Source: Gammaproteobacteria bacterium 50_400_T64
GTDB taxonomy: Bacteria > Pseudomonadota > Gammaproteobacteria > Pseudomonadales > Porticoccaceae
DNA: 64,000 nt
Assembly (NCBI GenBank): GCA_002162755.1
Contig: MAAS01000026.1
Span: 51,669 to 115,668 of the forward strand
Direction of reading: 5' to 3'
Shown here: piece after piece, positions 8,248 through 48,659 of the stretch
Layout: each line of letters begins with the position of its first letter
Position numbering within the stretch: the stretch's first letter is position 1
The notes under the pieces: generated by a model
The model's input: the letters and a program-made list of their open reading frames with translations, nothing else
What the model was told of the DNA's origin: nothing
The model's database searches: none
Program-made: the position numbers and the translations under genes

Positions 8248-8748
8248 TTACTCTGAGTAACGAATCCCAATAATTAGATAATCATGGCTTTCTCCGTTTA
8301 GGGTAAACGCTATTTCATCATCCAGGTTTTTACCGATCAGCGCTTTAGCCAAGGGTGAATCAATACTGATATAACCTTTGCTAGTATCGAGCTCGTCGGC
8401 TCCGACGATGCGATAACAAACGCTTTCAGCATCGTCATCTTCCAGTGTTACCCAGGCACCAAAATAAACCTTGTCGGTGTTGCTCGGTGGGCGATCGACG
8501 ATGGTGAAATCTTCCAGTCGATTTGTGAGATAACGTACGCGGCTATCAATTTCCCGCAAGCGGCGCTTGCCATAAATGTAATCCCCATTTTCTGAGCGGT
8601 CACCATTTTTAGCAGCTTCGTGTACCACGGCGGTCACCTGGGGGCGTTCGACCTTCCACAGCTGTCGTAATTCATCGCGCAACTGTTTCGCGCCCTCACT
8701 GGTAATGTAGGGGCTGGAGGGTTCTCTGGGTGGTCGGTAGCGGCCCAT
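8248..8748 (-). CDS. greB: Transcription elongation factor GreB
   Basis: 166 aa. The N-terminal coiled-coil region contains AAKNGDRSENGDYIYGKRRLREID, with the acidic tip residues (D, E, D) that GreA/GreB insert into the RNA polymerase secondary channel to stimulate cleavage of backtracked RNA. The length, the YIYGKRRLREIDSRVRYL stretch and the basic N-terminus favour GreB over GreA. The C-terminal FKBP-like domain ends at IGIRYSE. It starts two bases after the stop of the S9 peptidase gene, so it is probably the last gene of a minus-strand operon. Confidence 0.95.
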   Translation of the reverse strand: MGRYRPPREPSSPYITSEGAKQLRDELRQLWKVERPQVTAVVHEAAKNGDRSENGDYIYGKRRLREIDSRVRYLTNRLEDFTIVDRPPSNTDKVYFGAWVTLEDDDAESVCYRIVGADELDTSKGYISIDSPLAKALIGKNLDDEIAFTLNGESHDYLIIGIRYSE

Positions 8749-8750
8749 GG

Positions 8751-10709
8751 CTAAGCCGACGTGGAGGGTGAAACAGCAGGCAGATCAAAACCAAAAACCT
8801 CACTGTAAAACTTGAGTTCCTCTAGCATCGCTTTCTCCGTATTTCCTGCCTGCCGAAAACCGTGGCCTTCATCGCTAAAGGGAATGTATTTCACTTTAAG
8901 CCCTTTTTTCTCGAGAGATTCAACCATTGCTTCTGCCTGTTGCGGCGGCACAACTTTATCGTCGAGACCCTGAAAGAAAATTACCGGGCAATTGAGTTTA
9001 TCGATATGGTTAATGGGCGAACGTTGCTTATAGAGTGCTTGCTCAGCGGGGTAGGGGCCGACCAATGTGTCGAGATAGCGCGACTCAAATTTGTGGGTGT
9101 CGCGGGCCAGAGTTTCGAGATCACCAATGCCGTAATAACTGGCACCGGCTTTGAACAAGTCGTGAAAGGCGAGGGCGGCGAGCACGGTATAACCGCCAGC
9201 GCTGCCGCCGCGAATCATGATGCGCTCGGGGTCGACGAGGTTTTGAGCAATAAGATGCTGGGCACCGGCGACCACATCGTCGACATCTTTAATCCCCCAG
9301 GCACCATCCAACGCTTGTCGATAGGGTCTACCGTAGCCGGTACTGCCACGATAATTCACGTCGAGCACCGCAAAGCCACGATTAGTCCAGAACTGTATTT
9401 TTAAATTGAAACCTGTAGAGGTAGCACCGGTTGGCCCGCCGTGGCACAAGACCAGCAGTGGTGGTTTTTCATCGGTGTTTTGTGAATACGCGGCATTACA
9501 GGGCGGATAATAAAAGCCGTGGGCTTGTTCGTTGTCATTAGTTGAAGAGCCGCTGGTAGTAAATGTAATAGCTTGAGGCTGAGCGTAGTTTTCTGCGGCA
9601 ATGGGCAGGGCGGTAAACTGATGAATGATTTTATATTGAGCCGATTGTGTGTCGAGTTCGACAAGGCAGCCACTTTGTGAAGGCGACGCACCTATAAACC
9701 AGACGCAATTTTCTTTGCTGACTAAAGCCGATATTTGAGTGAAGGGCAGGTCAATGGTCGTTAGTTGTTTGGTTTTTTCATCAATGAGGCCGAGCCGCCA
9801 TAAACCCTCTGTGGTGTAGCAGGCGGCCAAATTACCGTCTCTGCAAAAACCATAAGTCGACATGCCCAGTGTCCACAGTGGCGTGGCAAACTCTGCTTTC
9901 TGTGGACATATTGCTACGCTTTTCTCTGTATTTTCATGGCGATAAATATTCCACCACTCGTTGCGATCCGAGACAAAGTACAATTCGCCAGCGGGTGACC
10001 ACTGGGGCTGAAAAATAGCTTCATCACGGCCACCGGCAATATTTTCTGGGCTGGCCAATAAACCACCGTCATTGAAATTCGCCAGCCATAATTCGCTACC
10101 CTGCCAGGGCATTTGTGGGTGCTGCCAGCTTATCCAGCTAAGTTGTGTGCCATCGGGACTGAGGCGAGGGTAGGCGTAAAAATCTGCGCCGCTGTGTAGC
10201 TCACTAAATTCGTAGGGTGAGTTGGTGGAAAGGGCGGCAATAAAGTTGCGGGGCTCATCAAGTTCGTCGCTGCTTTGTTCGGCGACGCAAATTAAGCGTT
10301 GGTGTTGGGTGTCATAACAAAAATCAGCAAAGCGCAGGTTGTGATTGGCCGGACTAATGGCCTCGGGGCTTGCACCTTTTACCCCTGTGTCGATCCGATA
10401 AATACGCTGATCATTTTGTTCGCAAAAATATAAAACACCAGCAATTACAATATACGGTGCGCCACCGTATTCATGCACGCGGCTACGCGCACTAAAAGGT
10501 GCGGGCAGCACATCCGTTTTTTGCCCCGTGGCATCGTGCCTAACAATTGCATTGCGTCCGCGTTCTTCCGGTCGAGCCTCCAGCCAATAAAGGTCATCAC
10601 CATCAATACACAGGTTATCGATTGAGGGTGCTGCACTGGCAACCTGTCGAGCGCTGATCGGTGATTGCCAGCTGCCATATGCGGTGTTGCTTTTCATTTT
10701 GTCTGCCAT
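8751..10709 (-). CDS. S9 family (prolyl oligopeptidase-type) serine peptidase
   Basis: 652 aa with an N-terminal beta-propeller-like half (about 20-380) and a C-terminal alpha/beta-hydrolase. The nucleophile elbow GGSAGGY places Ser503; the Asp in GLDDKVVPP (about 583) and His616 in DEGHGF complete the triad. HGGPT at about 425 is the usual oxyanion-hole segment. No signal peptide, so a cytoplasmic dipeptidyl- or oligopeptidase is expected. The ATG follows the yciH stop by one base and greB follows its stop by two, so the three genes look co-transcribed. Exact specificity is not readable; S9C-type acylaminoacyl or dipeptidyl peptidases are the closest by pattern. Confidence 0.9.
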   Translation of the reverse strand: MADKMKSNTAYGSWQSPISARQVASAAPSIDNLCIDGDDLYWLEARPEERGRNAIVRHDATGQKTDVLPAPFSARSRVHEYGGAPYIVIAGVLYFCEQNDQRIYRIDTGVKGASPEAISPANHNLRFADFCYDTQHQRLICVAEQSSDELDEPRNFIAALSTNSPYEFSELHSGADFYAYPRLSPDGTQLSWISWQHPQMPWQGSELWLANFNDGGLLASPENIAGGRDEAIFQPQWSPAGELYFVSDRNEWWNIYRHENTEKSVAICPQKAEFATPLWTLGMSTYGFCRDGNLAACYTTEGLWRLGLIDEKTKQLTTIDLPFTQISALVSKENCVWFIGASPSQSGCLVELDTQSAQYKIIHQFTALPIAAENYAQPQAITFTTSGSSTNDNEQAHGFYYPPCNAAYSQNTDEKPPLLVLCHGGPTGATSTGFNLKIQFWTNRGFAVLDVNYRGSTGYGRPYRQALDGAWGIKDVDDVVAGAQHLIAQNLVDPERIMIRGGSAGGYTVLAALAFHDLFKAGASYYGIGDLETLARDTHKFESRYLDTLVGPYPAEQALYKQRSPINHIDKLNCPVIFFQGLDDKVVPPQQAEAMVESLEKKGLKVKYIPFSDEGHGFRQAGNTEKAMLEELKFYSEVFGFDLPAVSPSTSA

Positions 10710-44966: not shown

Positions 44967-44998
44967 AAGCGGGTTCAGTGATACTGAGTCCGCTTTTT
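44967..44998 (+). terminator. Rho-independent terminator after the SDR gene (convergent with wzz-like gene)
   Basis: Stem AAGCGG/CCGCTT with inner TCAG/CTGA and loop TGATA, followed by TTT on the plus strand (CCGCTTTTT). It overlaps the stop codon of the minus-strand Wzz-like gene (44975-44977), so the coding end doubles as a terminator arm. Confidence 0.7.
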
Positions 44999-47086
44999 AA
45001 TGGACGGCAATTTCTTAAGCGCGGGGTGAACTGCCTCAATTTCGTCGGCGGCTAAACCGGGGCCAGAGGGCGATAGCTGACCGTATTGTGTCAATTGCAC
45101 GGGTGACAGCGGGCCAACAATACTGCCAAGTTCGGATAGCTTGATGCCCGATCGGACGAGGAAGTAGATATAGCTTTGCTGCAGGCAAGTACTGTTGATA
45201 CTTGATGGCTCACTCAGCCCCGCATCAATAGCGGCACAGCTGAGCATGGCATTAAAAAACGTATCGTCAGTTTCTTCATCGGCAGACAGCCATTGGGGTG
45301 CGCCCTGGGTTTTTGCCAGCAATTCTTGTAACGCTGGGGGTATGGCTAGCGCCCTGGGATTAAATGTGTTGAGTTGTATTTGCTGTGGGGTTTGTTGATG
45401 AGAGGTTTGCTCGGGAAGCGTAAAACTCTCGGGCTTCAATGCTCCCAGTTCATCGGGTCTAATGCCCGATAACAGCAGAGCGATGAGTTGTTGTGTTGGC
45501 AGATCTGCTGCAGCGAGTAGCGCTTTGATTTCCCTTTCCTCAAGTTCTCTGACGCTAGTGTCGACAGAGGGCTTGCCTAAAAGTGTGCTCGCACTTTGTT
45601 CCAGGGAGAGGCCCTCATTCCTGGCTTCATCTAATAATTGTGCCTGAGGTATTTGTTTTTCTGGGTTTGCAGCCAGGCGTGAGTCAAGGATGGTGACATA
45701 GTTGGGTGCTGGTGCCTGGTTTTGATTGTCGTCATGAGTACGGCGCAGGAATTCATACAGCCAGACGGCCAGTAAACCCAGTAGCAGCGAGCAGACCGCA
45801 ATAATTCCGGCATCGCGCCAATAGAGGGGGTAAACCGCTGTGTCTGATGCGTAAGCCGGTTCGATAATTTGAATTTGCGGGTATTTTTGCTGCTGCTCAA
45901 TATGCAGATCAGTGATGCGTTGCAGGATGACACGCTTGTGCTCTTCGAGTTGAATCAGCTCTTCTTTCATCGCCTCGTGTGCCGAGAAGCTATTGCTAAA
46001 AGTGAGGGCGGTTTGTTTGTAATCGTCAAGTTGACGTTGCAGTGCAATTTCGGCAATTTTTGCCGCTTGATAGTTACGTGATGCCGTTGCTAGCACGAGG
46101 GATTGACCGGCGGCTTCTTTCTCGGCAAGTGTTTTTTCTATAGCGGCCAATTGCTCGGGAATGGCTTTCATTTCCGGATGCAGGGCCATGTAGTCACGTG
46201 TGTATTTATTATCCAGTTCGGTGAGCTTGTCCTGTAATCGTCTTTGGCGCAGCTGTAAATCAGAGAAGGCGCGTTCATCACTGGGTGCTATCAGCGTTTT
46301 TCCCTGAGCGGCTGCAGCCTGTATGGCGTCAAGTTCGGCTTTCGTGGTGACGCGTTTTTCAAGTGCGGTGTTAAGAGCGTCTGTCAGCCCCTTGAGTTTG
46401 GCGTAAACCTCATTTTCATCTCTGCCTAAAGAGAGGATGTTGTTATTGGCGCGGAACTTTTCGAGTTCTTCGCGCTTGCTGACAACTTCATTTTCTATGC
46501 GGGTTTGCTGCTCTAATAGAGCGCTAGTAGTCTCGGCAACATTTTTTTCAATAGCGTCACGACGCGATTGGGCATAGGTGGCTATGAGGGTGTTGAGCAG
46601 AATTGGGAGTATTTCAGCGTTGTAGCCTTTGGCGCTAATCTCAAGCAAATTGCTTGCGTCGAGTGGCGCAACGCTCAGCATTTTTTGGAATTCGGCACTA
46701 TCGTTTGGTAGTGATCCTGTTGCATATTCTTCGGCACGAAGTTGTGCCAATGTGGTATCTAAGGTCTCTCGGGCGCGCAACAGGTTCTTTTGTATGAGGC
46801 CGTGCTGCAAGCTTGGGTCTGCTATTTCGGCGCCAACCTGGTTGGGCGTAACGGTGAGTAAAACCGCTGAACTCGCATAAATTGCCGGTCGGCTAAAATC
46901 GTAAATTAGGCCCAGGCTGGCACACAATAGGGTGGTGATAAAGAAAATGCGGAAGCGTTGAGATTGATGCCAGGGGATTCTTTTTTTAAAGGGACGAGGG
47001 TAATCAATGTTACCAAACCCTGGGCCTGGCGTGTTGCCGGGATAAGTCCCGGCCGGTTCCGCAAGAGGTAGCTTGTTGCTAGTCAT
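44975..47086 (-). CDS. Wzz/GumC-type polysaccharide co-polymerase fused to a degenerate tyrosine-recombinase-like domain
   Basis: 703 aa. Residues ~46-65 and ~427-450 are membrane segments framing a long periplasmic region rich in coiled coil (about 160-400), the layout of Wzz/GumC/Etk N-terminal proteins that set polysaccharide chain length. No C-terminal kinase Walker motif is present. Instead residues ~523-703 resemble the catalytic fold of tyrosine recombinases: LIALLLSGIRPDELGALK (Arg I box), FFNAMLSCAAIDAGL, then INSTCLQQSYIYFLVRSGIKLSELGSIVGPLSPVQLTQYGQLSP. The HxxR residues are replaced, Arg I and a Tyr remain, so it is probably inactive. No polysaccharide genes flank it. Confidence 0.8.
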   Translation of the reverse strand: MTSNKLPLAEPAGTYPGNTPGPGFGNIDYPRPFKKRIPWHQSQRFRIFFITTLLCASLGLIYDFSRPAIYASSAVLLTVTPNQVGAEIADPSLQHGLIQKNLLRARETLDTTLAQLRAEEYATGSLPNDSAEFQKMLSVAPLDASNLLEISAKGYNAEILPILLNTLIATYAQSRRDAIEKNVAETTSALLEQQTRIENEVVSKREELEKFRANNNILSLGRDENEVYAKLKGLTDALNTALEKRVTTKAELDAIQAAAAQGKTLIAPSDERAFSDLQLRQRRLQDKLTELDNKYTRDYMALHPEMKAIPEQLAAIEKTLAEKEAAGQSLVLATASRNYQAAKIAEIALQRQLDDYKQTALTFSNSFSAHEAMKEELIQLEEHKRVILQRITDLHIEQQQKYPQIQIIEPAYASDTAVYPLYWRDAGIIAVCSLLLGLLAVWLYEFLRRTHDDNQNQAPAPNYVTILDSRLAANPEKQIPQAQLLDEARNEGLSLEQSASTLLGKPSVDTSVRELEEREIKALLAAADLPTQQLIALLLSGIRPDELGALKPESFTLPEQTSHQQTPQQIQLNTFNPRALAIPPALQELLAKTQGAPQWLSADEETDDTFFNAMLSCAAIDAGLSEPSSINSTCLQQSYIYFLVRSGIKLSELGSIVGPLSPVQLTQYGQLSPSGPGLAADEIEAVHPALKKLPSIKKRTQYH

Positions 47087-47135: not shown

Positions 47136-48659
47136 TTATTCCAGCAAAATACGCAATTGCGTTTTTAGAATTTTACCGTAATTGTTTTTTGGCAGCTGGG
47201 CCACAAAGTGATAGTGCTTGGGGCGTTTAAAGCGGGCCATATTGTCGATACAAAACGCGTCGAGTTGTGCTTTGTCGAGAGTAGCCGTTTCCCGTTGCAC
47301 GACAAAGGCGACGACTACCTCTCCCCAGTCGGGGTCGGCTTTGCCAATCACCGATACTTCAATAATGTCTGGGTGTTCAAGCAGGATTTCTTCGACTTCC
47401 CGAGGATAAATGTTGGTGCCGCCGCTGATGATTAAATCCTTCGAGCGGTCTTTCAAGGTTAAATAACCCTGAGCATTGAGCATGCCCATATCGCCGGTAA
47501 AGAGCCAGCCATCGACAATGGTCTTTGCCGTTGCTTCGGGGTTTTGCCAATAACCACGCATCACGGTATCGCCGTTAACGAGTATCTCGCCGACTTCGCC
47601 GTCGGGGAGTTTGTTGCCATCCTCGTCGGCAATGCGGATTTCAACCGGCACCTGAGCGCAGCCGACAGAGGCGAGGAGTTCGTCCAGTGGCAGGTCGTCC
47701 CGGCCGAGGTGGTCGGCACGATTGAGGCAGCTGATGGTCATTGGGGTTTCGCCCTGGCCGTAGATTTGTGCAAATTTATTGCCAAAGCGCTCCATCGCGA
47801 CTTTGATGTCGGCGACATACATCGGCCCACCGCCGTAAATCATTACCTTTAAGTTGTCGGTGTTTTCATCTTTTGCCGGGGGTGTTTCGACCATGCGCTT
47901 AATCATGGTCGGCGCGGCAAACATCGACACTTGTGGATAGTGCTTGATGAGCTGGAGGATTTCTTCTGGCTCAAAGCTGCCACTCTGGGAAACAACCTGG
48001 TGGGCACCGGCGGCAATATTAGGAAAGGCGTAAAGACCGGAGCCGTGGGACATGGGTGCGGCGTGAAGCAGGGTAGCACCGGGTTCGATGGTGTCGACAC
48101 TGGCGAAGTAGCTTTGCGTCATCGCCATTAAATTGCGATGGCTGAGCATCGCACCCTTGGGCTGGCCTGTGGTGCCGCTGGTGTAAAACAGCCAGGCAAT
48201 GGCGTCGGGCTCGCATTGTTGCAGGGCTAAAGGGGGCGATTCATAGACTTGTTGAAATGCTGTGGAATTAACGCTGATGAATGATTTTAGCGTGTCGACG
48301 GTGTTGTTTAATTCACCAATCGTATCGTTGAAATCATCGGTAATAAAAGCGTGGGTTGCGCCACTGTTTTCCAGAATATAGGCGAATTCCCGGCGGTGCA
48401 GTTTGGCGTTGACCGGTACAGCGGTGAGCCCCGCATGCAAAACACCAAACAACACTTCTATGTACTGGGGTGAGTTTTTCATCACCAGTGCGATGCGCTC
48501 GCCGGGCTGGCATTGCAGCTCGTTTTTCAAATAGCTGGCAATGGCTGCAGTACGTTGTGCCAATGTGGCGTAGTCGCAGTGGGGCTCAAGCCCGCTGGAC
48601 AGCGCCCTGTGTTGAGGGAAGCGGCAGGCAGATTTTTCAAGTAGGGCGGCAATATTCAT
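47136..48659 (-). CDS. AMP-dependent acyl-CoA synthetase/ligase
   Basis: 507 aa, a class I adenylate-forming enzyme. P-loop YTSGTTGQPKGAMLSH, the A5 region IYGQGETPMTISCL, the hinge YLTLKDRSKDLIISGGTNIYPREVEE and the C-terminal acylation lysine in PKNNYGKILKTQLR are all present. The length and hinge fit medium/long-chain or aromatic acyl-CoA ligases. Substrate unknown; the hydratase and SDR genes nearby suggest a carboxylic acid degradation route. Convergent with nothing: the wzz-like gene lies downstream on the same strand with a 49-bp gap. Confidence 0.93.
   Translation of the reverse strand: MNIAALLEKSACRFPQHRALSSGLEPHCDYATLAQRTAAIASYLKNELQCQPGERIALVMKNSPQYIEVLFGVLHAGLTAVPVNAKLHRREFAYILENSGATHAFITDDFNDTIGELNNTVDTLKSFISVNSTAFQQVYESPPLALQQCEPDAIAWLFYTSGTTGQPKGAMLSHRNLMAMTQSYFASVDTIEPGATLLHAAPMSHGSGLYAFPNIAAGAHQVVSQSGSFEPEEILQLIKHYPQVSMFAAPTMIKRMVETPPAKDENTDNLKVMIYGGGPMYVADIKVAMERFGNKFAQIYGQGETPMTISCLNRADHLGRDDLPLDELLASVGCAQVPVEIRIADEDGNKLPDGEVGEILVNGDTVMRGYWQNPEATAKTIVDGWLFTGDMGMLNAQGYLTLKDRSKDLIISGGTNIYPREVEEILLEHPDIIEVSVIGKADPDWGEVVVAFVVQRETATLDKAQLDAFCIDNMARFKRPKHYHFVAQLPKNNYGKILKTQLRILLE

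Follow-up and report, generated by a model that had tools for sequence, protein, structure and literature searches.

A degenerate tyrosine-recombinase catalytic domain fused to a putative polysaccharide co-polymerase in Gammaproteobacteria

Gene and domain organization

The window, the 64,000-nucleotide stretch of DNA analysed here, carries on its reverse strand a complete gene for a protein of 703 residues (Table 1). On the basis of profile scores and the predicted structure we class it as a polysaccharide co-polymerase (PCP) of Wzz/GumC-like type. Proteins of this kind determine how long bacterial surface polysaccharides become and how they are exported; work on how the cytoplasmic side controls assembly has dealt mostly with tyrosine kinases and, more recently, with pseudokinases. 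That the protein described here controls polysaccharide length or export is itself an inference. Its score against the Wzz profile PF02706 is 21.6 bits, just below the Pfam cut-off of 25.5 that two sister fusions exceed (28.3 and 28.5 bits), and against TIGR03007 it reaches 35.1 bits, far short of the curated cut-off of 278.85.

In the full-length model two membrane helices flank a periplasmic part of α/β and coiled-coil structure, and a folded tail comes after the second helix and a disordered linker. The pTM of this model is low, 0.38, and the relative placement of the parts is uninformative; the cytoplasmic location of the tail is inferred from PCP topology. The tail lacks an N-terminal core-binding domain, and in the model it is the disordered linker that follows the membrane helix instead. 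No kinase model covers the tail, which is predicted to adopt a recombinase fold.

Directly upstream, on the same strand and separated by a gap of 49 bp, is an acyl-CoA ligase gene (47136-48659). This adjacency is conserved in the genus of the window and was not found outside it; the two genes possibly form an operon.

Table 1. Features of the fusion gene and its product, in window coordinates
Feature	Positions	Strand	Basis or remark
PCP (Wzz/GumC-like) with degenerate tyrosine-recombinase catalytic domain, complete gene, 703 aa	44975..47086	-	Open reading frame; PF02706 and TIGR03007 scores
N-terminal segment, disordered, residues 1-36	46979..47086	-	pLDDT <50, full-length model
Transmembrane helix 1, residues 43-65	46892..46960	-	Model helix; Wzz match (residues 44-96) starts here
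Periplasmic PCP domain, long coiled-coil helices, residues 66-421	45824..46891	-	PF02706 and TIGR03007 matches; model; dN/dS 0.07-0.12
Transmembrane helix 2, residues 422-451	45734..45823	-	Model; conserved P420 and invariant Y422 at helix start
Cytoplasmic linker, disordered, fast-evolving, residues 451-511	45554..45736	-	pLDDT <50; dN/dS 0.27-0.43
Degenerate tyrosine-recombinase catalytic domain, residues 512-694	45005..45553	-	Profiles, AlphaFold2, alignment; dN/dS 0.15-0.21; pI 4.84
R543, Arg-I position	45458..45460	-	R in the window's genus only; T/S/A/Q elsewhere
T633, where the box-II histidine belongs	45188..45190	-	Histidine gone in 17/17 sequences
Q636, where the catalytic Arg II belongs	45179..45181	-	R retained in 11/17 sequences
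P659, where His-III of LGH belongs	45110..45112	-	H in 1/17
Y668, nucleophilic tyrosine position	45083..45085	-	Y in 15/17
C-terminal motif L-S-P-x-G-x-G-L...E-I...[HY]-P-A-L, residues 671-690	45017..45076	-	P688 nearly invariant

Homology, predicted fold and distribution of the tail

Taken alone, the window tail is near noise in profile searches, with E-values of 0.0026 for the phrog_1 integrase and 0.13 for XerA_Arch, and it has no match in Pfam. The reading of a single sequence therefore needed outside support. An earlier note on this DNA had described a Wzz-type protein with a tyrosine-recombinase-like tail, and the family substantiates that description. The tail of L007, from another family than that of the window, scores 34.1 bits against PF00589 (Phage_integrase), above the cut-off of 27.1; this model matches 10 of 16 tails at E<=1, the best at 1e-10, and XerA_Arch matches the best family member at 1.9e-12. 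A profile built from the 16 tails and compared with the PDB finds 3nkh (1.6e-12), IntI4 (1.3e-10), XerC-like 4a8e (2.6e-10), XerA (3.7e-10), P2 integrase (1.1e-8) and XerD (1.9e-6), and in turn picks up, at 1e-9 to 1e-13, proteins of other genomes that appear to be genuine recombinases. The motifs SGIRPDEL, STCLQQSY (residues 632-639), IVGPLSP (656-662) and LTQYGQL occur in the order that the note had given, and both order and spacing agree with tyrosine recombinases; from G658 to Y668 the spacing is, without gaps, that of LGH...Y in Xer proteins.

Structure prediction had been named beforehand as a test able to refute the idea, had it returned disorder or another fold. AlphaFold2, given the 16 sequences as input, returns a confident recombinase-like fold for the tail (pLDDT 90.9, pTM 0.88) without disorder, the C-terminal segment being modelled less confidently (pLDDT 75 dropping to 48). 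The domain is present where it had been placed, with the correction that the folded part begins near residue 512 (position 45553), slightly before the 45520 first proposed. The 50 PDB matches listed by Foldseek consist of tyrosine recombinases and SroF, a phage repressor with the recombinase fold; the leading matches have TM-scores of about 0.55-0.67, with probability 1.00 to XerA, P2 and XerH. Sequence comparison and modelling together thus show that the tail (residues ~512-694) is homologous, by descent and in its predicted fold, to the tyrosine-recombinase catalytic domain.

The survey for the same fusion that the note had suggested covered 58 genomes of relatives, 392 of the order, 369 of the class, 112 of the family and 399 of the phylum. 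It yielded 16 intact fusions from 12 genera and nine families, all within the class of the window. With this recurrence and the predicted fold, a recombinase-like domain where a tyrosine kinase usually sits, as first supposed, is well supported. Members of the window's genus share 63-66% identity and remoter proteins 43%, 37% and 26%, the similarity being nearly full-length. Searches of plasmids with the full-length L040 protein and of phages with the L040 tail gave no homologues. The order search also produced six proteins of the same PCP clade that have no tail.

Fusion tails form one clade against true recombinases (support 99/98) and evolve fast relative to them. A single clade (99/99) likewise unites the fusion PCP parts to the exclusion of exosortase-locus and kinase-type PCPs, with the tailless group nested inside it (100/99 at the enclosing fork, 89/93 at the closest). 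Because of this nesting the trees, in each of which several inner branches are unresolved, point to one fusion, after which a sister lineage apparently lost the tail.

Within the genus dN/dS is 0.15-0.21 for the tail, 0.07-0.12 for the PCP part where computable and 0.27-0.43 for the linker. The least saturated pair, L004-L006, gives 0.21, 0.095 and 0.41, respectively; we caution that the other pairs are near synonymous saturation. At a dN/dS of ~0.2 the tail is, by this measure, under purifying selection. Its rate of evolution is about double that of the PCP part, and one lineage has apparently lost it, so it is not essential everywhere.

These rates bear on the possibility that the tail is a non-functional relic, an accidentally fused recombinase gene in decay. 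Fast evolution relative to true recombinases, the loss in one lineage and a broken gene in one draft genome (G006) could be so explained. Decay is hard to square, however, with an open frame and a confident fold retained in 12 genera, with a tail dN/dS of about 0.2, half that of the linker, or with a conserved C-terminal motif that recombinases do not have, and we consider it very improbable.

Two further observations concern individual lineages. The broken gene, L034 of G006 (8377-9512), is missing about 300 residues from its middle and has a changed frame; its PCP part is very close to that of the window (dS 0.26) and its tail far (dS 1.28), which suggests recombination or a chimeric draft assembly. 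The tailless sister PCPs L022-L027 have a conserved segment after membrane helix 2 (VTLSGVHxYP or similar), resembling the sequence NYVTILDSR with which the linker begins in the window's genus, and this segment is possibly a second cytoplasmic contact.

Catalytic residues, charge and action on DNA

Residues were counted in an alignment of 17 fusion sequences (the 16 intact and one fragment) with 17 bona fide recombinase domains. The latter were chosen partly by their Arg-I and HxxR motifs, and their perfect scores are therefore partly built in; the counts for the fusion sequences are unaffected by that choice. The loss of key catalytic residues, already noticed in the single sequence, extends to the whole family. 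No fusion retains more than three of the six residues of the catalytic set R-K-H-R-H-Y, and the window protein retains two, R543 and Y668. The box-II histidine is gone from every fusion sequence and His-III from all except one, and the β-lysine is at best doubtful in two and otherwise lost. Arg II and the tyrosine are more often retained (11 and 15 of 17, respectively).

SGIRPDEL had been taken as the Arg I box, and R543 does occupy that position. Arginine is found there in the window's genus only and the nearest relatives of the genus have threonine, so R543 is probably a later change and not a relic. Other positions are kept: an acidic residue, E or D, lies three positions past Arg I in all 16 sequences that cover it, and the glycine preceding His-III is invariant among the fusions. 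Conservation extends to the segment beyond the tyrosine, which ends in [HY]-P, aligning near the HHPR end of Xer proteins. The C-terminal motif of the fusions is absent from recombinases and is located where these have their partner-exchanging C-terminal helix.

There is a marked difference in charge. The 16 intact tails have pI values of 4.3-6.2 and net charges of -3 to -14 (4.84 and -8 in the window), compared with 7.2-11.2 and 0 to +13 for the 17 true recombinase domains, with no overlap between the two sets.

Does the tail still act on DNA? With catalytic residues lost and all tails acidic, we conclude from the sequences that recombination by the tail is excluded and that DNA binding is unlikely. 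An active site-specific recombinase at the membrane could be argued only from the tyrosine retained in 15 of the 17 sequences; with at most three of six catalytic residues, no box-II histidine anywhere and an acidic domain, its probability is negligible, and the catalytic losses refute it in practice.

A membrane-anchored DNA binder, which would tether the chromosome or regulate genes in response to the periplasmic PCP part, deserves more attention since a precedent exists in MrpR, a dead recombinase that works as a repressor by binding DNA (PMC10516654). SroF is among the structural matches, and Arg II, retained in 11 of 17 sequences, would also fit such a role. Every intact tail is acidic, however, and a disordered linker takes the place of the core-binding domain, which in recombinases completes the DNA clamp. 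The box-II histidine is gone in all and the β-lysine in nearly all, whereas MrpR retains its lysine (PMC10516654). We judge DNA binding of this kind improbable.

Genome context, proposed role and comparison with known systems

The neighbours of the fusion gene vary among genera, and most have metabolic or housekeeping functions. No conserved operon partner was found across the fusion loci examined, no polysaccharide genes adjoin the fusion gene in most genomes, and a search upstream of fusion genes at 19 loci for a sigma-54 promoter like that of the PEP-CTERM regulon gave nothing above shuffles. As polysaccharide genes are lacking beside most fusion genes, the case for a role in polysaccharide synthesis depends on the PCP part and on the moderate association of the fusion with exosortase. 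An exosortase occurs in nine of the 12 fusion genera, compared with 90 of the 272 genera sampled from the class (binomial P 0.004) and 49 of the 109 sampled from the order (P 0.035). The three fusion genera without a match are represented by drafts of at least 190 contigs. If the tailless sister group is added the count is 14 of 17 genera, with P values of 4e-5 (class) and 0.002 (order). The statistic ignores phylogeny.

On another contig the window's genome has an exosortase-A locus with its own TIGR03007 PCP (496 bits), an XrtA-associated tyrosine autokinase, a polysaccharide deacetylase and exosortase A. As a separate PCP and kinase are thus provided, the fusion protein is an additional PCP and not the canonical one. 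Its own gene is not part of any polysaccharide locus.

Close to this locus is a gene (L087 1528-2451) resembling a polyprenyl-phosphate transporter, with 344 bits against NF052564, under the cut-off of 400. The fusion gene of G002 is directly followed by a gene (L014 10573-11700) whose product has a PEP-CTERM-like C-terminus, and in G006 a similar reading frame is in the same position (L034 9695-10780); the window has no PEP-CTERM-like gene at the corresponding position.

The tail might serve only as a platform for a dedicated cytoplasmic partner, without any part in ring formation. That partner could be a further Wzx/Wzy component, a metabolic enzyme or a free-standing kinase, for instance the XrtA-associated autokinase. 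A platform would be compatible with a fold that has been kept while taking on a new surface charge and a new, conserved C-terminal motif, with the long flexible linker, and with the presence in this genome of an XrtA kinase and a PCP encoded separately. No adjoining partner gene is conserved, the neighbours varying among genera, and we think this explanation rather unlikely.

The reading we favour, as probable, is that a domesticated pseudo-recombinase serves as the cytoplasmic assembly or scaffold module of an orphan PCP, replacing the tyrosine kinase. An orphan paralogue of the exosortase-type chain-length family gained, once, an Xer/integron-type catalytic domain at its cytoplasmic C-terminus. 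This domain has lost most of its catalytic residues and the positive charge to be expected of a DNA-holding surface. It would now be a pseudoenzyme and would hang on a flexible tether of ~60 residues below the PCP oligomer, at the position that the tyrosine kinase occupies in Wzc-type proteins. Neighbouring tails may swap C-terminal segments cyclically, forming an assembly contact that needs no phosphorylation. The output would likely be a modulated surface polysaccharide, plausibly an exosortase-A-linked one. The assembly role, the ring exchange, any partner, the target polysaccharide and the role in chain length are all inferred.

The exchange of segments is suggested by analogy and there are no oligomer data. 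In the non-phosphorylated Wzc octamer the tyrosine-rich tail of one kinase domain inserts into its neighbour (PMC8285477). In the XerH synaptic complex the C-terminal helix of the catalytic domain enters the neighbouring subunit in a cyclic domain swap, and Cre and lambda integrase do the same (PMC5241119). Since both assemblies are held by a C-terminal segment entering a neighbour, recombinase geometry could replace that of Wzc. The most specific form of the proposal, a third kind of PCP control module in which an acidic, recombinase-fold ring former drives PCP assembly by cyclic C-terminal exchange without phosphorylation, is tentative and we put it forward as possible, not as likely.

Should a recombinase fold indeed stand in for the kinase, this would suggest that control depends on the geometry of assembly and not on the chemistry of the kinase. 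As far as is known, it would also represent something rare among prokaryotes, the conversion of a DNA-recombinase domain into a membrane-linked module that has probably lost contact with DNA. About a dozen natural variants exist for testing. We found no description of a PCP-recombinase fusion in the literature, having consulted open-access papers only, and as far as we could find a recombinase-derived pseudoenzyme in this position of a PCP has not been described before. Since some members exceed the Pfam Phage_integrase cut-off, public domain databases may already list the combination of PCP and Phage_integrase without comment.

Several known systems share part of this arrangement. The XrtA chain length determinants (TIGR03007) share with the fusions a pair of membrane helices and a periplasmic part built on long coiled coils, and the model matches all 15 fusions scanned at E<=0.1; unlike them, the window protein lies outside the XrtA locus, scores below the cut-off and has an extra cytoplasmic domain. 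Wzc-type PCP-2a autokinases similarly combine a PCP with a folded cytoplasmic C-terminal domain past membrane helix 2, but there the fold is a kinase and not a recombinase, and the fusion has no tyrosine-rich tail. In sequence the closest relatives of the tail are Xer recombinases and integron integrases, which are themselves active, mostly basic, two-domain DNA enzymes; this is not the case for the tail. The phage repressors MrpR and SroF have the tyrosine-recombinase fold, and MrpR is without recombination activity; it has a core-binding domain and binds DNA (PMC10516654), whereas the fusion tail is membrane-anchored, acidic and limited to the catalytic half. In function the pseudokinase EcpK comes nearest, by analogy: it has been proposed to act as a scaffold for its PCP independently of phosphorylation. 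In EcpK/EpsV and HfsB/HfsA, as proposed for the fusion, a dead enzyme would support a PCP without phosphorylation (PMC12004946); those pseudoenzymes are separate proteins of kinase fold, whereas here the fold is that of a recombinase and it is fused to the PCP itself.
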